In this document: piece after piece, positions 9,166 through 29,192 of the stretch | Layout of the letters: each line of letters opens with the position of its first letter | How positions within the stretch are numbered: position 1 is the first letter of the stretch | Source of the DNA: Chryseobacterium sp. | GTDB taxonomy: Bacteria > Bacteroidota > Bacteroidia > Flavobacteriales > Weeksellaceae | Direction: 5' to 3' | Length of the DNA stretch: 64,000 nucleotides | Assembly: GCF_008014695.1 (NCBI RefSeq) | Contig: NZ_VOXE01000004.1 | Coordinates: forward strand, 186,001 to 250,000 | Position numbers and translations under genes: made by a program | The notes under the pieces: generated by a model | Databases searched by the model: none | Told to the model about the DNA's origin: nothing | The model's input: only the letters and a program-made list of their open reading frames with translations

Positions 9166-9335
9166 TTTTGAAGCTAATATTGAGAGGGTAACTAACCGCT
9201 TAATAGATTTCACCTTCCTGAGGTTTAACTTTCCCTTTTAAAATTTGGGGTATCATGGGAATTAGTATAGCCATTTCTGAAAATTTTAGTTGGAGATGAA
9301 ATTAACATTGCTATTAATTCAACTTGAGTGCATTT

Positions 9336-10322
9336 CTATTTTCTCTCTATTAGATTGAGATTTCTAACTTTTTTAGTGAGATCTTTTCCATTGTTTAAAC
9401 AAATTTGTGAAATGATGGCGTTTCCCTCCATATCAATAGAGAATGTAAATCTCATTTCTACTTTTCCTTTTTGGAGCAACGGTAGGCCGTCAAACTCAAA
9501 CATTAAGAGTTTTGAGTTTTGACTTGCCTTAATATTATTACCGTATACAATGTTGGTTATGCTTTTTGATTGATAGTCCTTACTTGTCCTCACCACTGCT
9601 GAATATGTGTATGGGACTTTATCTCCTTTCTTAGCCAAGTATTTTATTTCATCATTTAGAATGGAGATACCGATATTGTGTTTCAGAATATATTGAGGTA
9701 ATAAATCTAATGAAGAAGCTAATTTTTGAATTTTAATGTTATCCGGTGCGATGTCAAACGCTTTATTAATGTCTGTTCTATCCCCCTCTGTTTTGGCTTG
9801 ATATAAAATATCTTGAGCAAGATATTCCCTTTGATTTAGTTCATCATTAACTCCAACTTCAAATTTAGAAATCTGCTGGATGCTGTCTAAACGATTTGTT
9901 GTAGAACATAGATTTGAAAATTCATGGGAAAATGATTTTATCACTTCCTCTTCCTCTTTTATGATGAGAATGTTTTCTCTGTTTTTTTCTTCTGCAAAAT
10001 AGGTCCAGTTGTAGGATCCATTTATGAGAATTATATTATCAATCAAACAGAATTTGTTGTGCATTGGGTTTTCTAAGCTTGAAAAATAGAACTCCCCACC
10101 TAAATCAATAAATTCCTGAAAATTCAATCCACCGATTCGGTTGTTTATAAAATCATTGTGAATTATCAGTTTAATGCGGACCCCATCTTTTAATTTTGTC
10201 AAAAGGATATTAAATAATTCACGATTAGTGAACCAATAGACAGCAATAAGTACCTCATCTGTCGCTGATAAAACTTCTGAAATAATATTTTTTCTTATAG
10301 CCGAGAAATGCGTAGTTATCAT
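9336..10322 (-). CDS. Phospholipase-D-like protein, one HKD motif
   Basis: A 328-residue protein with one PLD catalytic motif, HNKFCLID (H-x-K-x4-D) at about residues 88-95, followed by the typical GSYNWT. The N-terminal part (DEVLIAVYWFTN) matches the first strand of PLD nucleases. Single-HKD bacterial proteins usually dimerise to form an active site and cut nucleic acids. Residues after about 150 are a helical, unrecognised extension. Its ATG overlaps the stop of the receiver-domain gene (ATGA), so it is the last cistron of the retron operon and a candidate effector nuclease. It is strongly A+T-rich, like the end of its neighbour. Confidence 0.8.
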   Translation of the reverse strand: MITTHFSAIRKNIISEVLSATDEVLIAVYWFTNRELFNILLTKLKDGVRIKLIIHNDFINNRIGGLNFQEFIDLGGEFYFSSLENPMHNKFCLIDNIILINGSYNWTYFAEEKNRENILIIKEEEEVIKSFSHEFSNLCSTTNRLDSIQQISKFEVGVNDELNQREYLAQDILYQAKTEGDRTDINKAFDIAPDNIKIQKLASSLDLLPQYILKHNIGISILNDEIKYLAKKGDKVPYTYSAVVRTSKDYQSKSITNIVYGNNIKASQNSKLLMFEFDGLPLLQKGKVEMRFTFSIDMEGNAIISQICLNNGKDLTKKVRNLNLIERK

Positions 10323-12625
10323 TTAGATTTCTTGAAGTTGGGATGTGTAGAAAGTTCAGCAAGAGAGTCCTCAAAAGTTTTTTCTGTTAGACCATTTAAG
10401 AGATTCTTATCACTAACATTTTCAAGAGATGTAAAATATTTCAAAAAGCTTATCAACTCTAGAATATCTTGAATGCCAATTTTACTTGAAATATTTTCTT
10501 TGCTGTAATGAGCTGCTTTTGTATTTCGGTTTGTATAGATTCGCGTCCAATTCATCACCGACGAATTGGAATTTCCCAATCTATAAATTAAAATAGCAGA
10601 TACTTTAAAATTAGTGTCTAATCTTTTAATATGTTCTTGTTTCAACGAATTTTTATTTATATCATATTTTCCGTTTGTGAATTTTATACTTCTCTCAAAC
10701 TCTTTATTTTTCCGTTGCTGAACGAGAATCCTTTGGTCTTTATTTATGACATACACCGAATCGCCTTCGATAAGGAAAAAGTCTTGTGAAATTAAAAATT
10801 CCAGGAACAAATAAATTTGGATGTATGCATATGATAAATACTTCTTGTCAAATCGTGCTCTTTTCAATAATTCAAATGAAATATCTAAAAATGAATTAAT
10901 TTCTTCACCAAGTATTATTTCGTCCTTATCAAATGAAGAATATATAAGAATGGAATTTTTAATTTCTACGAAATCTGAGTAGACATTTTTTAAAAATCCC
11001 ATTTGAGATGCTTCCTTAAAATTTCTTATCAAATCATTAATCGCATTATTTGTGAAAGTTTCATCGATACTGTTTTCGGGTGATTCTTTTATTATAAAAC
11101 CATCCGCTCCCGCGTTTTGATTGGCTTGAAGATTCCATATTTTATTTGTGGCAGAAAATATAAGAACCTGAATGCCGGGATTGTGTTTTTTTATCCTTTT
11201 AAGTATTTTAAGACCTGTAACGCTGGAAATGTCTTTCTGCAGAAAATCGGAAGGATGTAGCCGGAAATCCAAGAGTACTATATCGGCGTCAATTTTGATC
11301 ACCTTTTCAATACCCTTTTCAATGATCAGGTCCTGAGAAAGCGTCTTGAAATCTTCCTCGAGATAACTGAACTCAAATCTATTAATGTCATAGAAAATTT
11401 TACAGAGGTTTTTGTACCAGCCTTTATTTGCGTCATCGTCAATGAGGAGAATCCGGGGTTTATTGTTTACCTTAATCTTAAGCGTATTCTCCAAAATTAT
11501 TTCTGCCGATGAAACCGGGAATCTGGTTTTTAAATACTTAAAATAGCTGTCTCCCTCGACTCTCTTGCTTATTTTTTCAATTGCCTCGTCAGAAGTATCT
11601 AATGTCCGGGCCCATCTGTAAATTGCCCACTCATTAGTCGCGCTATGGGAATCTTCGTAATTGGAAGGGACTTTCAAATTAATTTTAGCCAGCTCAGCCG
11701 GCAACTGGTAATCCTCTAATTTCTGAGGACGGTATGCCAGCGAGCGGAGAAATCCTTCCCTGGAATAACTGATGAGAAAGATGTTCTTGGTTTTTAAAAC
11801 ATCATAGAAATCATTATTCAGTAGGTCCCGGTGCTCTACAGGTGAATAAATAAACAATGGTGTTAATTTATTTTTTGAATCGGTGATGCGAATATGCAAC
11901 GCCAAGCGGAGTCCATTAAAATCGGACAGAACATTTCCGAAGCAAAGGGGGATGAAAATTTTATCAAATGTTTCGTCATTAAACCACTCCTTCACTCTTT
12001 GATCGAGATATTCGTCTGAAATCAGGTGATTAAATTTATCTTCAGTAAAGAAGGTCTCATCCCTTGACTCTTGAATAGAGACGGGAATTTCGTCTTCCAA
12101 GCTAAGCGCCAAAAAAGTTACTTCAGCAGTATCCAATTGTGTTGAATCAAAAGCGTTATTGCTATCCTGTATCTTTTGGAGTAGCTTTTCTTCCCGGAAG
12201 AAGTCCCTGCCAAAAAGCAAGTTGCGTAAATCTATGTTTTCGCTCTTTACTTCTGATAAAAACACCTCTAAATTCTGGTATAAAACAGAAACGGGTAAGT
12301 GGGCGATATTGCCATTAATATGACGGTCCACTTTGCTGCCACTAAAGTACACCAGCGAGTTACCATTCTTTTCGGTAAAAGCAGTCAATTTCTCCCGGAT
12401 GAGACGGCTGTCTTTCGGGTGGTTGTTAAGAACGTTGTCAAAAAAGGATTCGTGAAACAAGATTATGCTGTCGTCAGCAAAGATTTCCTCACGCAGATTA
12501 CCATTCTCCAGATCCTCATATGAAGAAATACTATGTATGATGCCGTGAAATTCGTTAAAACGTTCCTGTGTCCAGGCATAATCTATTTCCTGCCTTTCAG
12601 TTTTTTCGTCTATTAAAAAAATCAT
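10319..12625 (-). CDS. Receiver-domain protein with C-terminal HEPN-like motif
   Basis: A 768-residue multidomain protein. Residues 1-380 are unrecognised. Residues about 390-520 are a response-regulator receiver: LLIDDD near 393, the phospho-acceptor Asp in IVLLDFRL near 451, FSATN near 490 and the Lys in GFIIKES near 510, so all key positions are present. Residues 530-768 are helical and include RNTKAAHY near 700, an R-N-x4-H pattern (Rx5H) of the kind used by HEPN ribonucleases. There is no DNA-binding output domain. ATGA overlaps on both sides tie it to the 418-aa gene and the PLD gene. A switch that controls an RNase or signals to the PLD protein is inferred. The receiver is confident; HEPN is tentative. 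Confidence 0.7.
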   Translation of the reverse strand: MIFLIDEKTERQEIDYAWTQERFNEFHGIIHSISSYEDLENGNLREEIFADDSIILFHESFFDNVLNNHPKDSRLIREKLTAFTEKNGNSLVYFSGSKVDRHINGNIAHLPVSVLYQNLEVFLSEVKSENIDLRNLLFGRDFFREEKLLQKIQDSNNAFDSTQLDTAEVTFLALSLEDEIPVSIQESRDETFFTEDKFNHLISDEYLDQRVKEWFNDETFDKIFIPLCFGNVLSDFNGLRLALHIRITDSKNKLTPLFIYSPVEHRDLLNNDFYDVLKTKNIFLISYSREGFLRSLAYRPQKLEDYQLPAELAKINLKVPSNYEDSHSATNEWAIYRWARTLDTSDEAIEKISKRVEGDSYFKYLKTRFPVSSAEIILENTLKIKVNNKPRILLIDDDANKGWYKNLCKIFYDINRFEFSYLEEDFKTLSQDLIIEKGIEKVIKIDADIVLLDFRLHPSDFLQKDISSVTGLKILKRIKKHNPGIQVLIFSATNKIWNLQANQNAGADGFIIKESPENSIDETFTNNAINDLIRNFKEASQMGFLKNVYSDFVEIKNSILIYSSFDKDEIILGEEINSFLDISFELLKRARFDKKYLSYAYIQIYLFLEFLISQDFFLIEGDSVYVINKDQRILVQQRKNKEFERSIKFTNGKYDINKNSLKQEHIKRLDTNFKVSAILIYRLGNSNSSVMNWTRIYTNRNTKAAHYSKENISSKIGIQDILELISFLKYFTSLENVSDKNLLNGLTEKTFEDSLAELSTHPNFKKSK

Positions 12626-13878
12626 TTTGTAAATTTTAAGATGTATTCAACACCATGGAATGATGAAACTGAATCCGGTTTGGCTTTAGCCGGTTTTCCG
12701 TCCCAGAAATTGATAATATGGGGCTCTTCCGAATCCGCATAGATTGCCCTTATATAGAAATCGCAAAGTCCATTAAGTTGCAAGTCAAAGAGGTTCGACA
12801 GGACTTGACCTGGCCGATTAATTGCGTCAAAGCGAGATTTTCGGAAGGTTGTATTCTTATGATGGACTGACAGTTCTACAGTTCCCTTCTTACTTTGCAG
12901 CAAGGACAGTTTAACTAGGGGTTTTTCTAATTTATATTTTTTTTGCACTTCAATTATCAATTTGATCAAAACGTCATAGGCGGCGATTAGTTTCTGCACG
13001 TTCGTAAATAATTCGATATCCTCAGGGAAGTTTTCTTCCTCAATTATAAATGTAATATCCCTTTCCCAGTTATTTCTTGTATTGTGAGTTTTTAAAATTT
13101 GCACTAGCGGATTGTCTCCCCGGATATGGAATAGTTTTTTAAAATATAATATGAGATCAGAAAAATAAATTGATTTGTCGGCAGGGAATGTTTGTCCACT
13201 TAAAGGTTGAGGCAATTTACAGCCTTTGTTCTTCTGGACGTTCTTAAATCCCGGGTCTGGATGGGGAACTGCTCCCGGATTTTTTCGACACCAACTTTCC
13301 AATTCATCGGAAAACCAATTTATCGTAATTGTGCTGTCCAAATTAAGATTTTTACTGTTGTCAAAATTTCGTCCTGTTATAAATGCAAAGAAGATTGCCT
13401 TGAGGTCGCCGTCTGCATACCCTTTAATCCACTCGTTGAATTCGTCTATTAAAAGTTGACGGTGATTGAAATAATCATAAGTAAGTGTTCCGCAAGCCCT
13501 GTTGATCATCTTTAGTTCGTTGCTGTCAATTAAATGACAGGCGGTACGAAGGAGTGGATTCTGATTGAACTTTTCTAAAAACGATGCTAATTTATGTGGA
13601 TTCACATATTTTAGTTTTGTGGATCCCATTTGCGGGGTTCCCATCTCCTCGTCTATTTTTTTATCGGGCATAACATGTGTCATGCTTCCCAATTTTCCAC
13701 CAAGCGTTGTCTGTACTTGTTCTTCCAACTGAGCAACACGCTGTTCTAAATCTTTGCCCAACAGCCCATCCTTTTTTATCTCATTCTTTGTATTACGTAA
13801 TATACGTTCACGCTGACTAAGCGTCAATTTTTTATTTTCGAGAAGTTCCTGTATAAAATCGTATTTATCTTTTGCCAT
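12622..13878 (-). CDS. Unrecognised 418-aa protein, second gene of retron operon
   Basis: I do not recognise the family. The protein is soluble, with no signal peptide or membrane segment. Residues 1-60 are charged and helical with a likely coiled coil (LEQRVAQLEEQVQ near 43-55). The middle (about 100-330) is mixed alpha/beta with several Trp and Arg residues. The C-terminus ends in a conserved-looking HGVEYILKF motif. Because it is followed by a receiver-domain gene with a 4-bp ATGA overlap, a degenerate histidine-kinase-like sensor role is conceivable, but I see no H-box or N-box. It starts 5 bp after the reverse-transcriptase gene, so it is a likely retron accessory protein. Confidence 0.65.
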   Translation of the reverse strand: MAKDKYDFIQELLENKKLTLSQRERILRNTKNEIKKDGLLGKDLEQRVAQLEEQVQTTLGGKLGSMTHVMPDKKIDEEMGTPQMGSTKLKYVNPHKLASFLEKFNQNPLLRTACHLIDSNELKMINRACGTLTYDYFNHRQLLIDEFNEWIKGYADGDLKAIFFAFITGRNFDNSKNLNLDSTITINWFSDELESWCRKNPGAVPHPDPGFKNVQKNKGCKLPQPLSGQTFPADKSIYFSDLILYFKKLFHIRGDNPLVQILKTHNTRNNWERDITFIIEEENFPEDIELFTNVQKLIAAYDVLIKLIIEVQKKYKLEKPLVKLSLLQSKKGTVELSVHHKNTTFRKSRFDAINRPGQVLSNLFDLQLNGLCDFYIRAIYADSEEPHIINFWDGKPAKAKPDSVSSFHGVEYILKFTK

Positions 13879-13883
13879 AGAAA

Positions 13884-15137
13884 TTATAATAATGCAATTT
13901 GATCAGCTACTTTATCAACTCTAGGAGATGGGTCAGCGTAAAATTTTGACATTGCCTCATCAATACCATTCTTTTCCCATGTATCTAAAAGTTGATCGAC
14001 TGATTTGTTTCTCAGCGAAAGTTTTTCAAATCTTTCTTTTAGACCCAAATAAGTGGAATTGTTTTCCCCCTTTACCATTTTCAAGTAGTTAAGCTTACCT
14101 TCGATAACATTCTCCATAAAAAAGGAGGTCTTTCCAAGGTTTTTAACATGTCCCTTGTCTTTGATGTATCCATTTAAAAATAAATTGAAAGCTTTCTCGG
14201 CCCCAAATTTCTCCCAAAAACTTAGCCATAGACGAATCCTTTTTACATAAGTTCGCGTCACGTTAGAAAATTCATTTACAGTAATGCCGGTTACTTCCTG
14301 GCGTGTACCAGATTTTTGCAGCCTTACTTTATCCTGATTAATTATAAAATACTGGTCGGAAACAATTCTTCCTAATTCCTTTCGAAATGCTCCTTCCTCC
14401 TGATATACATTTTGCATCGAGCTGAAAGTAATATCATCCGCGTATCGACTATATTTAACACCAAATCTTTTGGCGAGCCCAGTTAATCGCCGGTCTAACC
14501 GCTCACAGATAATATTTGTAAGGATAGGGGATAATGGAGAACCTTGTGGTAAGACCCGTTTTTCTGCCTTTTGAATTTTGCCATCTACAAGTCTTTCCAC
14601 AATTGTATTTTCACAGGCTAACCATGCAATATAATTCCCTAATTCTTCCCGTCCATTTTCTTTATTGAAATTGAAAGGTGGAAAACTTAATCGGTTTAGT
14701 ACCCTTCCGATTTCAATACTTGGAAAAAAATCTTTCAAGTCAATATTGAATACGTAGTTATTGCCACAATGTAAATTGGCATTATCTACTACAGATGCAT
14801 CTTTAACAAATCCGTAAGCTGCAGAATGTGGTGTGAAAACTGTTTGGAACATCAGGTTAATACATTGCAACACTACTTTTAATTCAGGTTGTGGTGCATG
14901 AATCGTTCTCATACCCCCATTTTTCTTTTTGATTTCAAAAGAATGGTATCTGTTTTTCGATTTTGGATGAGCCAATGTTTTAATTACATACTCATCAATG
15001 CGGGTACGGTCTTTAAATTCAGGATATAAAATATCCTGACAAATATCAATAAGCATACAGAAATCCCTTAAATCTTTCATTGACTTGAAAAACTTCTTTA
15101 TAAATTCTGCCTGCTCAATTGATATATTTTTTACCAT
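13884..15137 (-). CDS. Retron-type reverse transcriptase
   Basis: A 417-residue RNA-directed DNA polymerase. It has the polymerase core: NIDLKDFFPSI with the first catalytic Asp near residue 128, LPQGSPLSP near 196 and YADD near 228-231. It also has both retron hallmarks: an NAxxH box (NANLH, near 116) and VTG (near 280). Retron RTs copy part of their own non-coding RNA into msDNA. A matching RNA with a1/a2 arms lies 25 bp upstream. There is no maturase or endonuclease domain, which argues against a group II intron. It is longer than the usual roughly 320 residues because of a helical C-terminal tail of about 90 residues. It heads a four-gene run. Confidence 0.9.
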   Translation of the reverse strand: MVKNISIEQAEFIKKFFKSMKDLRDFCMLIDICQDILYPEFKDRTRIDEYVIKTLAHPKSKNRYHSFEIKKKNGGMRTIHAPQPELKVVLQCINLMFQTVFTPHSAAYGFVKDASVVDNANLHCGNNYVFNIDLKDFFPSIEIGRVLNRLSFPPFNFNKENGREELGNYIAWLACENTIVERLVDGKIQKAEKRVLPQGSPLSPILTNIICERLDRRLTGLAKRFGVKYSRYADDITFSSMQNVYQEEGAFRKELGRIVSDQYFIINQDKVRLQKSGTRQEVTGITVNEFSNVTRTYVKRIRLWLSFWEKFGAEKAFNLFLNGYIKDKGHVKNLGKTSFFMENVIEGKLNYLKMVKGENNSTYLGLKERFEKLSLRNKSVDQLLDTWEKNGIDEAMSKFYADPSPRVDKVADQIALL

Positions 15138-15161
15138 TTTTCATTTTTATGTAAAAAGTTC

Positions 15162-15431
15162 AAAGCCTGTTTTGTGTTTTCTTTATATATTCAATTGCTA
15201 AAATAAGTGAGGGTACTTCTGAAATTAAATTGATCAAAAATTCAAGATGTAATAAAGTAAAACCAATGATCTACTAAAATAATATTACCAATTATTATAA
15301 AATAATATCCTCAGTCTACTAAGACCTATAAATCTAAATCAATTTATAAAAGAAACCTTCATCATCCCTAGCTTCGCCAGGAATACCTACAAAAAACAGT
15401 AGGCGAAATCAAAATCTAAAAAACAGGCTTT
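15162..15431 (-). ncRNA. Retron msr-msd RNA
   Basis: A 270-nt non-coding stretch directly before the RT, with retron architecture read on the minus strand. The a1 arm AAAGCCTGTTTT (15431-15420) is perfectly complementary to the a2 arm AAAACAGGCTTT (15173-15162). Just after a1, a TTAGAT context gives a candidate branching guanosine at 15416. An msr hairpin at 15407-15373 has outer TTCG/CGAA and inner CCTAC/GTAGG stems around a T-rich loop. The msd base is a perfect 9-bp stem, TAAATTGAT (15346-15338) with ATCAATTTA (15234-15226), enclosing an A+T-rich template. The predicted msDNA is about 100-120 nt. The exact 5' end and branch site are inferred. Confidence 0.78.
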
Positions 15432-15507
15432 TCAATGAACTCTTATTGTTTTTCTGATGCAAACTTCAACGTCACCAATGCAAAGGAAGTGCACCAGAAA
15501 ATAATTT

Positions 15508-15912
15508 TTATTTATAGCTTAGGAAATCATAATTTCCTCCCAGATGTTTGTCGACTTCAAAGGAGGACAAATATCTAAGATTATGATTCTCCTTTGGGGT
15601 ATAAACCCCGTTAATAAAGTAATTAGGCCTAATCTTTTGCAAGATCCCCAGTACATTGTCAGTTTTTCTTCCCAAAAAAGCGGCGATCTCTTGAGGAGAC
15701 TTTTTTCTATAATAATCCTGCTCATATAGTATGGCAAAAATTTGAAATTTGAAAATATGAGCGGAGCATTCTGCACTGATACGAGAATCTTTATCAAAAG
15801 GTTTCTCTAAATTAATTTCAAAAAGTTCACAAAATCTTTGGAATGAGGCATGTCTACCTGTGGTCCGGTAAGCAACTGTGCCCATTCTGGTGGGTAATTT
15901 TTCATTTTCCAT
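15508..15912 (-). CDS. Small HTH-like protein upstream of the retron RNA
   Basis: A 134-residue protein, family not recognised. A helix-turn-helix-like segment, SPQEIAAFLGRKTDNVLGIL, at about residues 73-92 is followed by a short beta-wing-like stretch (YFINGVYTPKENHNLRYL). The N-terminus is basic. This suggests DNA or RNA binding. It lies about 76 bp before the retron a1 arm on the same strand and could regulate the retron or act as its partner, as small HTH proteins do in some retrons. An inverted repeat (15945-15996) sits just before its start. The ATG at 15912 is the first good start. Confidence 0.6.
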   Translation of the reverse strand: MENEKLPTRMGTVAYRTTGRHASFQRFCELFEINLEKPFDKDSRISAECSAHIFKFQIFAILYEQDYYRKKSPQEIAAFLGRKTDNVLGILQKIRPNYFINGVYTPKENHNLRYLSSFEVDKHLGGNYDFLSYK

Positions 15913-16002: not shown

Positions 16003-16992
16003 TTAATAATTTGCAGACAGTTTTTTAGCTCTATTTTTAATAATCTCCACCAACTCCAGCGGCTCCAATACCTTCATATTTTCGCCGTAAGAAAGAATGA
16101 GTGACTGCAATTCATAATTTAGCTTGACCTCCAATAACAGAATATTTTCTTTGACTTGTTGTGAACCGTGAACAGGTTTGGATTTGATATACGGGATGAT
16201 GTTATTACTCAATTGAATTTTAATTTTAACGGCAGCTTTCGTTAGATCATTACTTACTCCAACGATCTCCTCAAAGTATTCTTCAAAGTCTATGGGATTT
16301 GCTATGTACTGATCTTTACATGATATGATATTCTGCATCCGATCCAATGCTAAATTCTGAATGTAGCCATCAGTGTGATTCCAACCGAAGAGAAACCACC
16401 TGTTGTTATACTGCTTGAGGTAGTAAGGTGACAAAGTAAATGTCAACACCTCATCTGATGTAAAAGTTTTGTATTGGATTTCAATCACCTGCTGATTGAT
16501 AATAAACTGATATAGAGGGTTCAGAAATGACAGACCCAGCAAATATTCATTTTCTTCGAAACTGATGACCTGTGTTTTCTGCGTTTCCGCATTTAATCCT
16601 GACTGAAGTTTTGCCTGTAAGGAATTCACCCAATCAAAACCGGGGAGATTATTCATTCTGCTCAGGGTCTCCAGAGCTTCTTGCAGAGAAGACATTTCCG
16701 AGGGGTTCAGCGGGGTTTTCAATATGGAAAACTCCGGATCTGAATACCTGTAAAAGACGGTACGACCGTCTTTTAAACTTTCGATGGGCGCCTCAAAACC
16801 GGCATCGCTTTTCATGAAATCCATATCTTCAAAAATCTGGCGGCGGGAAACCGTGGTCTCCTGCGCATAATGATCGGAAAGAATACTGGTGCAATATTCA
16901 ATTAAATCATTGATGTAGAATTTTTTATACTGATTCGCAAAGCATTTGTCCAAAGCCTTGTATCTGATCTGAGCGTTTTTGTTCTGAGCCAT
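16003..16992 (-). CDS. WYL-domain transcriptional regulator
   Basis: A 329-residue protein with an N-terminal winged-helix-like region (about 1-75) and a WYL domain at about 145-235. In the signature the Tyr is replaced by Phe: NNRWFLFGWN near residue 196, followed by the usual ALDRMQ strand. A WCX-like C-terminal region follows. WYL regulators sense ligands, often nucleotides or nucleic acid, and frequently control phage-defence islands (BrxR, CapW). Its position at the head of the island next to the retron suggests that role. A TATTTTTG -7 box lies about 30 bp upstream. Confidence 0.85.
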   Translation of the reverse strand: MAQNKNAQIRYKALDKCFANQYKKFYINDLIEYCTSILSDHYAQETTVSRRQIFEDMDFMKSDAGFEAPIESLKDGRTVFYRYSDPEFSILKTPLNPSEMSSLQEALETLSRMNNLPGFDWVNSLQAKLQSGLNAETQKTQVISFEENEYLLGLSFLNPLYQFIINQQVIEIQYKTFTSDEVLTFTLSPYYLKQYNNRWFLFGWNHTDGYIQNLALDRMQNIISCKDQYIANPIDFEEYFEEIVGVSNDLTKAAVKIKIQLSNNIIPYIKSKPVHGSQQVKENILLLEVKLNYELQSLILSYGENMKVLEPLELVEIIKNRAKKLSANY

Positions 16993-17087: not shown

Positions 17088-17531
17088 TCACTTGCAAGTA
17101 TACGCCACTTCCGATCCGACGAACCGTTTAAATTTGTTAAGGAAAGTTCTATAAACCCGGTACGTGTTTTCAGTAATGTTAAGATACATCTTCTCCAGAG
17201 TCTGATCAGCGTACTCAAAAAAGTTGATGGATTTTTTTTCCTGTACAGTCTCTTTTAAAGCACTTGCTGAAATGTTTTTAGTCTTTCTTTCCTCGTCGAT
17301 AATTTCCATCGATGCGTCTGCCATTTTAGCGATAAGCACTGCATTCATCCTCGTGCTGTTCGGATAGTTTTTGCGGACCCTTTGCTGGTCCTGATCCCAC
17401 TCTGAGGGAAGAAGCTATATTCCAAGGGAAATAAACCTTGCGTTGCGGTTTTTAATGACGCGGATATAAAGTGGGCATTTGCCAGTTTTATCTTTTTGTT
17501 GTGTTTTAAGAACAAATTTTACGGTTGCCAT
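17088..17531 (-). pseudogene. Decayed tyrosine recombinase (phage-type integrase) remnant
   Basis: From ATG 17531 the frame reads MATVKFVLKTQQKDKTGKCP, the arm-DNA-binding domain typical of Bacteroidetes tyrosine recombinases. It then meets an in-frame TAG at 17417-17415. After the stop the same frame continues with coherent integrase sequence (LLPSEWDQDQQRVRKNYP) and the SAM-like core-binding domain (FFEYADQTLEKM). It ends at a TGA near 17088 just after FVGSEVAY. The catalytic domain with its R-H-R-Y residues is absent. So the gene has a nonsense mutation plus a C-terminal truncation. It marks the outer edge of the defence island and suggests integrase-mediated arrival. Confidence 0.82.
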
Positions 17532-17732: not shown

Positions 17733-17764
17733 TTTGACAGTCCAAAGAAATTTGTGTATTTTTG
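17733..17764 (+). promoter_or_regulatory. ahcY promoter (-33 TTTG, -7 TATTTTTG)
   Basis: TTTG at 17733 and TATTTTTG at 17757-17764, separated by 20 bp, match the Bacteroidetes housekeeping promoter. The ATG at 17783 would give a leader of about 15 nt. Confidence 0.6.
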
Positions 17765-17782
17765 CAAAAATATTTTGAATTA

Positions 17783-19096
17783 ATGGAAACAACTACACAA
17801 TACGTTCCTTATAAAGTTAAGGATATATCATTAGCGGAATTTGGAAGAAAAGAAATAAAACTGGCAGAGGCAGAAATGCCAGGTCTAATGGCCATCCGTG
17901 AAGAATACGGACCTTCTCAACCATTGAAGGGCGCCAGAATTGCAGGATGTCTTCACATGACCATCCAGACTGCAGTACTTATTGAAACTTTGGTTGCACT
18001 TGGAGCTGATGTTACCTGGTCTTCATGTAATATTTTCTCTACTCAGGATCACGCCGCCGCCGCTATCGCTGCTGCAGGAATTCCGGTTTATGCCTGGAAA
18101 GGAATGAACGAAGAGGAATTCGAATGGTGTATTGAACAAACGGTATTTTTCGGCGAAGACAGAAAACCTTTGAATCTGATCCTGGATGATGGTGGTGATT
18201 TAACAAATCTGGTTTTCGATAAATATCCTGAATTAACAAAGGACATTAAAGGACTTTCTGAAGAAACCACGACAGGAGTTCACAGATTATACGAAAGAAT
18301 GCAGAACGGGACTTTAGTGATGCCTGCCATAAATGTAAACGATTCAGTTACAAAGTCAAAATTCGATAATAAATATGGCTGTAGAGAATCTGCTGTTGAT
18401 GCAGTAAGAAGAGCCACAGATCTTATGCTTGCAGGAAAAAGAGTGGTTGTATGCGGTTATGGAGACGTGGGTAAAGGTACTGCGGCTTCATTTAAAGGCG
18501 CAGGATCTATTGTTACTGTGACGGAAATCGACCCTATCTGTGCGCTTCAGGCGGCAATGGACGGGTTTGAGGTTAAAAAACTTGAGACTGTTGTAGATAC
18601 TGCAGATATTGTAATTACCACTACCGGAAACTTCAATATTGTAAGAAGCGAGCATTTTCTTAAAATGAAAGATAAAGCAGTTGTCTGTAACATCGGACAC
18701 TTCGATAATGAACTTGACATGGCGTGGCTAAACAAAAACTACGGTTCTACAAAATACGAAGTGAAACCTCAGGTTGATGTGTACAATATCGAAGGTAAGG
18801 AAATCATTATCCTGGCAGAAGGTCGTCTGGTAAACCTGGGCTGTGCAACAGGACACCCGAGTTTTGTAATGAGTAACTCATTCAGCAACCAGACTTTGGC
18901 TCAAATTGAACTTTGGAAGAATGCTGAAGCTTACGGAAATGAAGTGTATATGCTCCCAAAACATCTGGATGAAAAAGTAGCGGCTTTACATCTCAAAAAA
19001 TTAGGCGTAGAACTGGAAACTTTAAGTCCCGAACAGGCAAAATATATTGGTGTGGAGGTTGAAGGACCTTACAAACCGGAATATTACCGTTACTAA
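17783..19096 (+). CDS. ahcY: Adenosylhomocysteinase
   Basis: S-adenosyl-L-homocysteine hydrolase: it splits SAH into homocysteine and adenosine, using tightly bound NAD, and so keeps methylation reactions running. Recognisable motifs are the N-terminal [17 protein letters not shown] substrate region, the NAD-binding [28 protein letters not shown] and the conserved C-terminal Lys and Tyr (YKPEYYRY). Length (437 residues) is normal. I chose the ATG at 17783 over the TTG at 17762 because the TTG lies inside the -7 box. It is a single gene with its own promoter and terminator and the first clear core gene after the island. Confidence 0.96.
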
Positions 19097-28935: not shown

Positions 28936-28959
28936 AAAAAAGCCCCTGAATGGGGCTTG
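28936..28959 (-). terminator. Terminator after tRNA-Asp
   Basis: On the minus strand AAGCCCC-ATTCA-GGGGCTT is followed by a T run, immediately after the second tRNA-Asp. Confidence 0.75.
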
Positions 28960-29033
28960 CGATCCGGACGGGACTCGAACCCGCGACCTCCGCCGTGACA
29001 GGGCGGCATTCTAACCAGCTGAACTACCGGATC
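28960..29033 (-). tRNA. tRNA-Asp (GTC), copy 2
   Basis: A 74-nt cloverleaf read on the minus strand: acceptor GATCCGG/CCGGATC, D-arm with AGTTCAGCTGGTTAGA, anticodon loop CTGTCAC (GTC, Asp), T-arm GGGTTCGAGTCCC, discriminator G. CCA is not encoded. It is identical to the copy at 29119-29192. Confidence 0.96.
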
Positions 29034-29118
29034 AATTTTTTAAAAGTACTGACAAAACTTTAATGATTTCATGTGGCTCAATCAAACAAAATAATAAGAT
29101 TGTGCCAAGCAATATATG

Positions 29119-29192
29119 CGATCCGGACGGGACTCGAACCCGCGACCTCCGCCGTGACAGGGCGGCATTCTAACCAGCTGAACTACCGGATC
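29119..29192 (-). tRNA. tRNA-Asp (GTC), copy 1
   Basis: Same sequence and fold as the copy 86 bp downstream; anticodon GTC. It is the first of a tandem pair, probably transcribed together, since the only terminator lies after the second copy. Confidence 0.96.

Follow-up and report, generated by a model that had tools for sequence, protein, structure and literature searches.

Retrons are bacterial antiviral systems in which a small RNA is copied into DNA, and most of the known retrons hold a toxin directly. HisKin-conflict and iREC proteins are reportedly the subject of work by Burroughs and Aravind in 2020. In Kva2, a type IX retron with HEPN and winged-helix components, the HEPN dimer is kept within the retron complex (PMC13405049). 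In Retron-Sda1, an adjacent HipA/DUF3037 pair defends without the reverse transcriptase (RT) or the ncRNA (PMC12548924). Thirteen retron types were counted in a 2025 paper and 16 subtypes in a 2026 preprint, with no mention of a histidine kinase in either. A full-text literature search of partial coverage returned no report of a retron with a histidine kinase, receiver and HEPN, and PADLOC contains no retron type with a HisKin-conflict/receiver/HEPN partner.

The stretch of Chryseobacterium sp. DNA analysed here (the window, 64,000 nucleotides) contains an ncRNA gene that belongs to an intact-looking retron with an RT of a distinct clade in a Bacteroidota genome. Sequence comparison and analogy with described retrons suggest that the locus represents a retron of a new type. 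Its RT-msDNA complex would govern a HEPN ribonuclease by way of a two-component-like switch; a probability of approximately 0.78 is assigned to this reading.

The reverse transcriptase and its partner proteins

The RT (13884-15137, minus strand) was identified as a retron RT of 417 aa from its motifs, relatives and profile matches, with NAxxH at residue 119, YADD at 232 and VTG at 282. By the strict pattern, NAxxH is missing in 2 of the 16 homologues. The nearest solved relatives are the RTs of retrons Ec67 and Ec86. The best PADLOC models were those of retron types XI (324 bits), XII (295 bits) and I-C (275 bits), matched in the RT part only; a type XIII control protein scored 612 bits on its own model as compared with the best score for the window RT, which also reached 257 bits with NCBIfam Retron_TIR against a cut-off of 600. 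In a phylogenetic tree, the HisKin-linked RTs formed one clade with support of 100/99, apart from the type XIII clade. L013, which is the same locus as L038, fell inside the HisKin-linked clade, and both L013 and L066 were long branches. A group II intron, DGR or DRT origin of the RT is rejected on the basis of the retron motifs and the clade. The RT was not found in viral contigs, and phages contained just distant RTs.

The gene downstream (12622-13878, minus strand) encodes a HisKin-conflict protein (PF22561) of 418 aa, assigned by Pfam (E=7e-41) and alignment. Residues H115 and H340 are invariant in the alignment, with no recognisable H-box or N-box. The FKxxIExR stretch contains no conserved His and there is no clear N-box Asn, for which reason the protein is perhaps inactive as a kinase.

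The next gene (10319-12625, minus strand) encodes a fused switch protein of 768 aa, the domains of which were assigned with Pfam and alignments as an N-terminal REC1-like domain, an iREC domain at residues 181-285 (PF22563), a receiver at approximately 390-521 (Response_reg) and a HEPN-like C-terminus. Elsewhere the protein is split into REC1 (∼210 aa) and an iREC-REC-C-terminus protein (∼560 aa), and in L037 and L072 it is split alternatively into REC1-iREC and REC-C-terminus. The receiver contains the acidic pair, phospho-acceptor Asp and Lys, with D396, D397, D453 and K513 invariant in 13 of 13 proteins. In the C-terminal domain of 14 proteins the only invariant residues are Glu, Arg and His, the Arg being nearly always followed by Asn; the window residues are E609, R700, N701 and H706, forming the motif R-N-x(3-5)-H. 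Judged from the residues, this E/R-N-x(3-5)-H arrangement is the pattern of the HEPN active site and includes the R(x4-6)H motif. Matches to HEPN Pfam families were weak, the best being 0.0014 with 2 of the 14 members matched and none for the window protein. Searches of the PDB produced no match for the C-terminal domain and nothing useful with the HK and REC1 profiles, and AlphaFold models of the HEPN-like domain and the HK from two-sequence alignments were unusable (pLDDT 38 and 40).

These proteins tentatively suggest a His-to-Asp relay driven by the msDNA-RT sensor, at somewhat less than even odds. The kinase, which in some lineages forms one protein with the RT, would phosphorylate the receiver that has a HEPN ribonuclease as output. 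It is a real if doubtful possibility that the HisKin-like protein is instead a degenerate, non-phosphorylating scaffold and that RT-msDNA sequesters the HEPN protein by contact. The missing phospho-acceptor His and N-box Asn point in this direction, as do the inactivity of iREC implied by its name and the precedent of type IX Kva2, whose HEPN dimer stays within the complex (PMC13405049), and fusions of RT and HK are compatible with it. However, a pure scaffold would need none of the four receiver residues that the second receiver retains in every protein aligned.

A fourth gene (9336-10322, minus strand) overlaps that of the 768-aa protein by 4 bp and encodes a PLD-family nuclease-like protein (PLDc_2 by Pfam) of 328 aa with HxK(x4)D. 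This gene was seen at the window locus and at none of the homologous loci, and of all parts of the system it therefore has the least certain role.

Gene linkage and surroundings of the locus

The genes encoding the RT, HisKin-conflict protein, iREC-receiver protein and PLD protein share a strand, with 5 bp between one neighbouring pair and overlaps of 4 bp at the other two junctions. PF22561 was found in 12 of the 321 genomes of the window's family, 11 of them with this RT adjacent or fused and the twelfth with the gene at a contig edge (hypergeometric P of 1e-17 for the linkage). Four further PF22561 loci at the class and phylum level were all RT-linked. Over the family genomes and the class and phylum samples of Bacteroidota, the total is 16 PF22561 loci, with all 15 that could be assessed beside or fused to the RT clade. 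In 6 loci the RT and HK are a single protein of 671-720 aa.

It is quite unlikely that the locus comprises two systems that work separately, namely a retron and, next to it, an HK-receiver-HEPN defence module with no relation to it. There is a precedent in Retron-Sda1, where the adjacent HipA/DUF3037 pair is sufficient for defence (PMC12548924), and TOTE conflict genes recur near the present loci and are not part of the retron; nonetheless, the fused RT-HK proteins, the linkage to an RT of all assessable HisKin-conflict loci and the grouping of these RTs in one clade argue for a single system.

Exceptions to the HisKin linkage are RTs of the clade at two loci with other genes downstream. At L034 (G262) the RT (9305-10483) is 62% identical to the window RT and is broken by an in-frame stop, the ncRNA is still recognisable, and the genes downstream encode a different 305-aa protein and others, with no HisKin protein. 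At L038 (G229) the gene after the same-clade RT encodes a 303-aa protein that matched nothing in Pfam or PADLOC and is possibly another effector.

The TOTE conflict pair consists of a helicase carrying a TBP-TOTE domain and a second protein carrying S1CSD-TOTE domains; it is located downstream of the retron in L031, L032, L033, L034, L036, L067 and L072, and is absent from the window. A WYL-domain regulator is encoded near the RT in the window (16003-16992, minus strand) and, as a homologue, at 7 further loci (L031, L036, L037, L038, L067, L072 and L073), in either orientation, and may control the retron system. An ORF of 134 aa (15508-15912, minus strand) separates the WYL gene from the retron; Pfam, PADLOC and PHROGs gave no match for it, and it was not seen at the homologous loci. 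A short ORF (17088-17348, minus strand) with a phage-integrase SAM-like domain adjoins the adenosylhomocysteinase gene (17762-19096) and is probably what is left of an integrase at the boundary of the island. The window also has two tRNA-Asp (GTC) genes in tandem, of equal score, at 28959-29192 on the minus strand.

Fold and covariation of the ncRNA

The retron ncRNA (msr-msd) was predicted to extend over 15153-15442 of the minus strand from its fold and a matching plan at 16 other loci, with the 3' end ∼15 nt ahead of the RT ATG (15137) on the same strand. The arms AAAGCCTGTTTT (15162-15173) and AAAACAGGCTTT (15420-15431), on which the sequence-only reading was founded, are exact complements 246 nt apart as described. 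Folding revealed full arms of ∼18 bp with a bulge, longer than noted in that reading, with a2 (15156-15173, minus strand) paired with a1 (15420-15442, minus strand); outside the core of a1 that corresponds to AAAACAGGCTTT, an outer segment (15436-15442) pairs with 15156-15162 over a 5-nt bulge. The region folded more stably than shuffled sequences, with z values of -4.1 (370 nt) and -3.4 (274 nt). When the 370-nt upstream region was dinucleotide-shuffled, 23 of 3000 sequences contained an exact inverted repeat of 12 bp or more with 100 nt or more between the arms, and 3 of 3000 did so when at least 4 G/C were also demanded, which is comparable to the G+C of the arms. Given these frequencies, the 12-bp match is unlikely by chance, as had been claimed, and by itself is suggestive rather than decisive.

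The msr was predicted to form two stem-loops on the minus strand, P2 (GCCTAC/GTAGGT, 15385-15404) from the fold and homologues, and P3 (ATTCCTGGC/GCTAGGGAT, 15364-15384) from the fold, homologues and a covariance-model match. The letters TTCGCC/GGCGAA, previously proposed as the msr hairpin, are present in the window; the best fold has P2 and P3 as separate hairpins instead, and the proposed pairing is not conserved, with a G-U pair in L031 and its loss in L032-L034. The predicted msd (15174-15361, minus strand) is A+T-rich with a conserved ATAAAGAAAACA at its end before a2. It includes the 9-bp stem of 15226-15234 with 15338-15346, which is exact and lies where the earlier reading had expected it; an msd hairpin is predicted from folds of single sequences. 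The loci compared have a TTGA(T/A)-like element after a1. The branch guanosine had been placed at 15416, a position that is not conserved; comparison of the segments points to the conserved G near a1 within this element, at 15410 (minus strand), as the better candidate. Upstream of a1, GAAGTTTG at approximately 15461-15490 (minus strand) was read as a probable Bacteroidota-type -7 element, by the consensus for such elements, and TAnnTTTG, read in the same manner, is a probable -7 element upstream of a1 in several homologues.

Relatives of the RT with 86 to 41% identity were found in the family and order of the window, and homologues at the class level were reached via the RT partner gene. Two of these relatives, L032 and L033, are on Chryseobacterium plasmids (C. 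balustinum NZ_CP033935.1 and C. oryzae NZ_CP094531.1, respectively), a location indicating that the system moves between replicons. Upstream DNA was compared for 16 other RTs, with the L071 RT, truncated at a contig end, left out. In 16 of the 16 loci an inverted repeat was found that ends a short distance before the RT, the arm sequences differing widely, as in AAACCGTAATT (L035), TGAAGTGCCAAC (L038), ATGAGTCTGC (L041) and AATGCCTGTCA (L072), results that rule out a chance repeat in the window.

Pairing of each a1 with its own a2 in 15 loci (the window and 14 homologues) gave a sum of -330 compared with -183 (sd 18) for swapped partners, and none of 20,000 permutations was as good. Own pairs were also the best among 8 divergent lineages and in 14 loci including the later-found L072 and L073, again with 0 of 20,000 permutations as good in each test, and the preference for the own partner extended to P2 and P3 when one member was taken per divergent lineage. 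The msd is too divergent to align, so that RNAalifold returned zero pairs for 15 complete ncRNAs aligned with MAFFT, and whole-ncRNA alignment was replaced by these cross-pairing tests and an msr-only alignment. In the msr alignment the covariation score of P2 and P3 was 0.603 compared with 0.337 (sd 0.037) for shuffled alignments, 0 of 500 reaching it, while controls with slid partners scored at most 0.317; 10 of the 15 pairs change on both sides, with 30 cells showing double compensatory change. Covariation across homologues, named as a check by the sequence-only reading, thus bears it out, as the homologues repeat the a1/a2 arrangement with compensatory changes.

A covariance model built from 10 loci with the window excluded recovered the held-out L042, L040, L073, L072 and L031 (E of 2e-6 to 5e-3) and found the window site upstream of the RT with E=8e-5 in the 370-nt region, a match at 15354-15413 that spans P2 and P3. 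Over all loci searched (466 kb) the window match has a weak E of 0.1, and the loci of other RTs contained nothing below E=0.19. Most homologues have a longer P2 with a CUG...AUCGG motif; the weaker scores of the window and its sister L031 are attributed to a P2 without this part.

The retron ncRNA originally proposed is therefore supported by the a1/a2 plan, the covariation of the homologues and the retron RT downstream. A structured leader or DRT-like template RNA that yields no branched msDNA is very improbable, for although Rfam contained no match to the ncRNA even at a relaxed threshold, the order and place of a1 and a2, the msr stems and the retron-clade RT with NAxxH and VTG all speak against it.

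Proposed working and comparison with known systems

For the preferred reading, that of a new retron type with a two-component-like switch, we infer the following dynamic steps. The RT, by virtue of its family membership, would bind the ncRNA, prime from the G just inside a1 and copy the msd to msDNA. By analogy with other retrons, the msDNA-RT complex would be a phage sensor that holds an accessory module off (PMC13405049, PMC12548924). The module would consist of the HisKin-like protein, a small receiver-like protein and an iREC-receiver-HEPN-like protein, the last two of which are fused in the window. Upon damage to the msDNA or its binding by a phage, the HisKin protein would change state and switch the receiver, most likely through phosphorylation of Asp453, to which about even odds are given, and otherwise by direct contact. 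The HEPN dimer would then cut RNA and growth would stop. In the window strain, the co-transcribed PLD nuclease may be a second effector.

A kinase-like/receiver signal path, if true, would give abortive defence a means of amplification or reversal and couple retron sensing to two-component signalling, and the route from msDNA damage to the effector could be tested directly with purified components. The CUG...AUCGG msr motif and the matched arms make the ncRNA family a search model for more such systems in Bacteroidota.

Among known systems, retron types XI (RT-protease), XII (RT-TIR) and I-C (RT-Toprim) supply the closest RT models and resemble the present loci in the fusion of RT and partner at some of them; however, protease, TIR and Toprim domains are absent here, the partner being a HisKin-conflict protein with receivers and a HEPN-like domain. 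Kva2 of type IX is alike in having a HEPN RNase as the probable toxic end (PMC13405049), whereas no winged-helix gene was found here and an HK-like partner is present; furthermore, the HEPN-like part is here the C-terminus of the receiver protein and contains a compact R-N-x(3-5)-H motif that is missing in Kva2. The HisKin-conflict/iREC proteins belong to the same families as those described (PF22561 and PF22563), and were found here only with the RT. Canonical two-component systems have in common with this locus a receiver with Asp, acidic pair and Lys, and an HK-like partner gene. In contrast to these systems, the window locus has no clear phospho-acceptor His and no sensor or membrane part, the RT complex apparently replacing the sensor and the HEPN-like domain the DNA-binding output.
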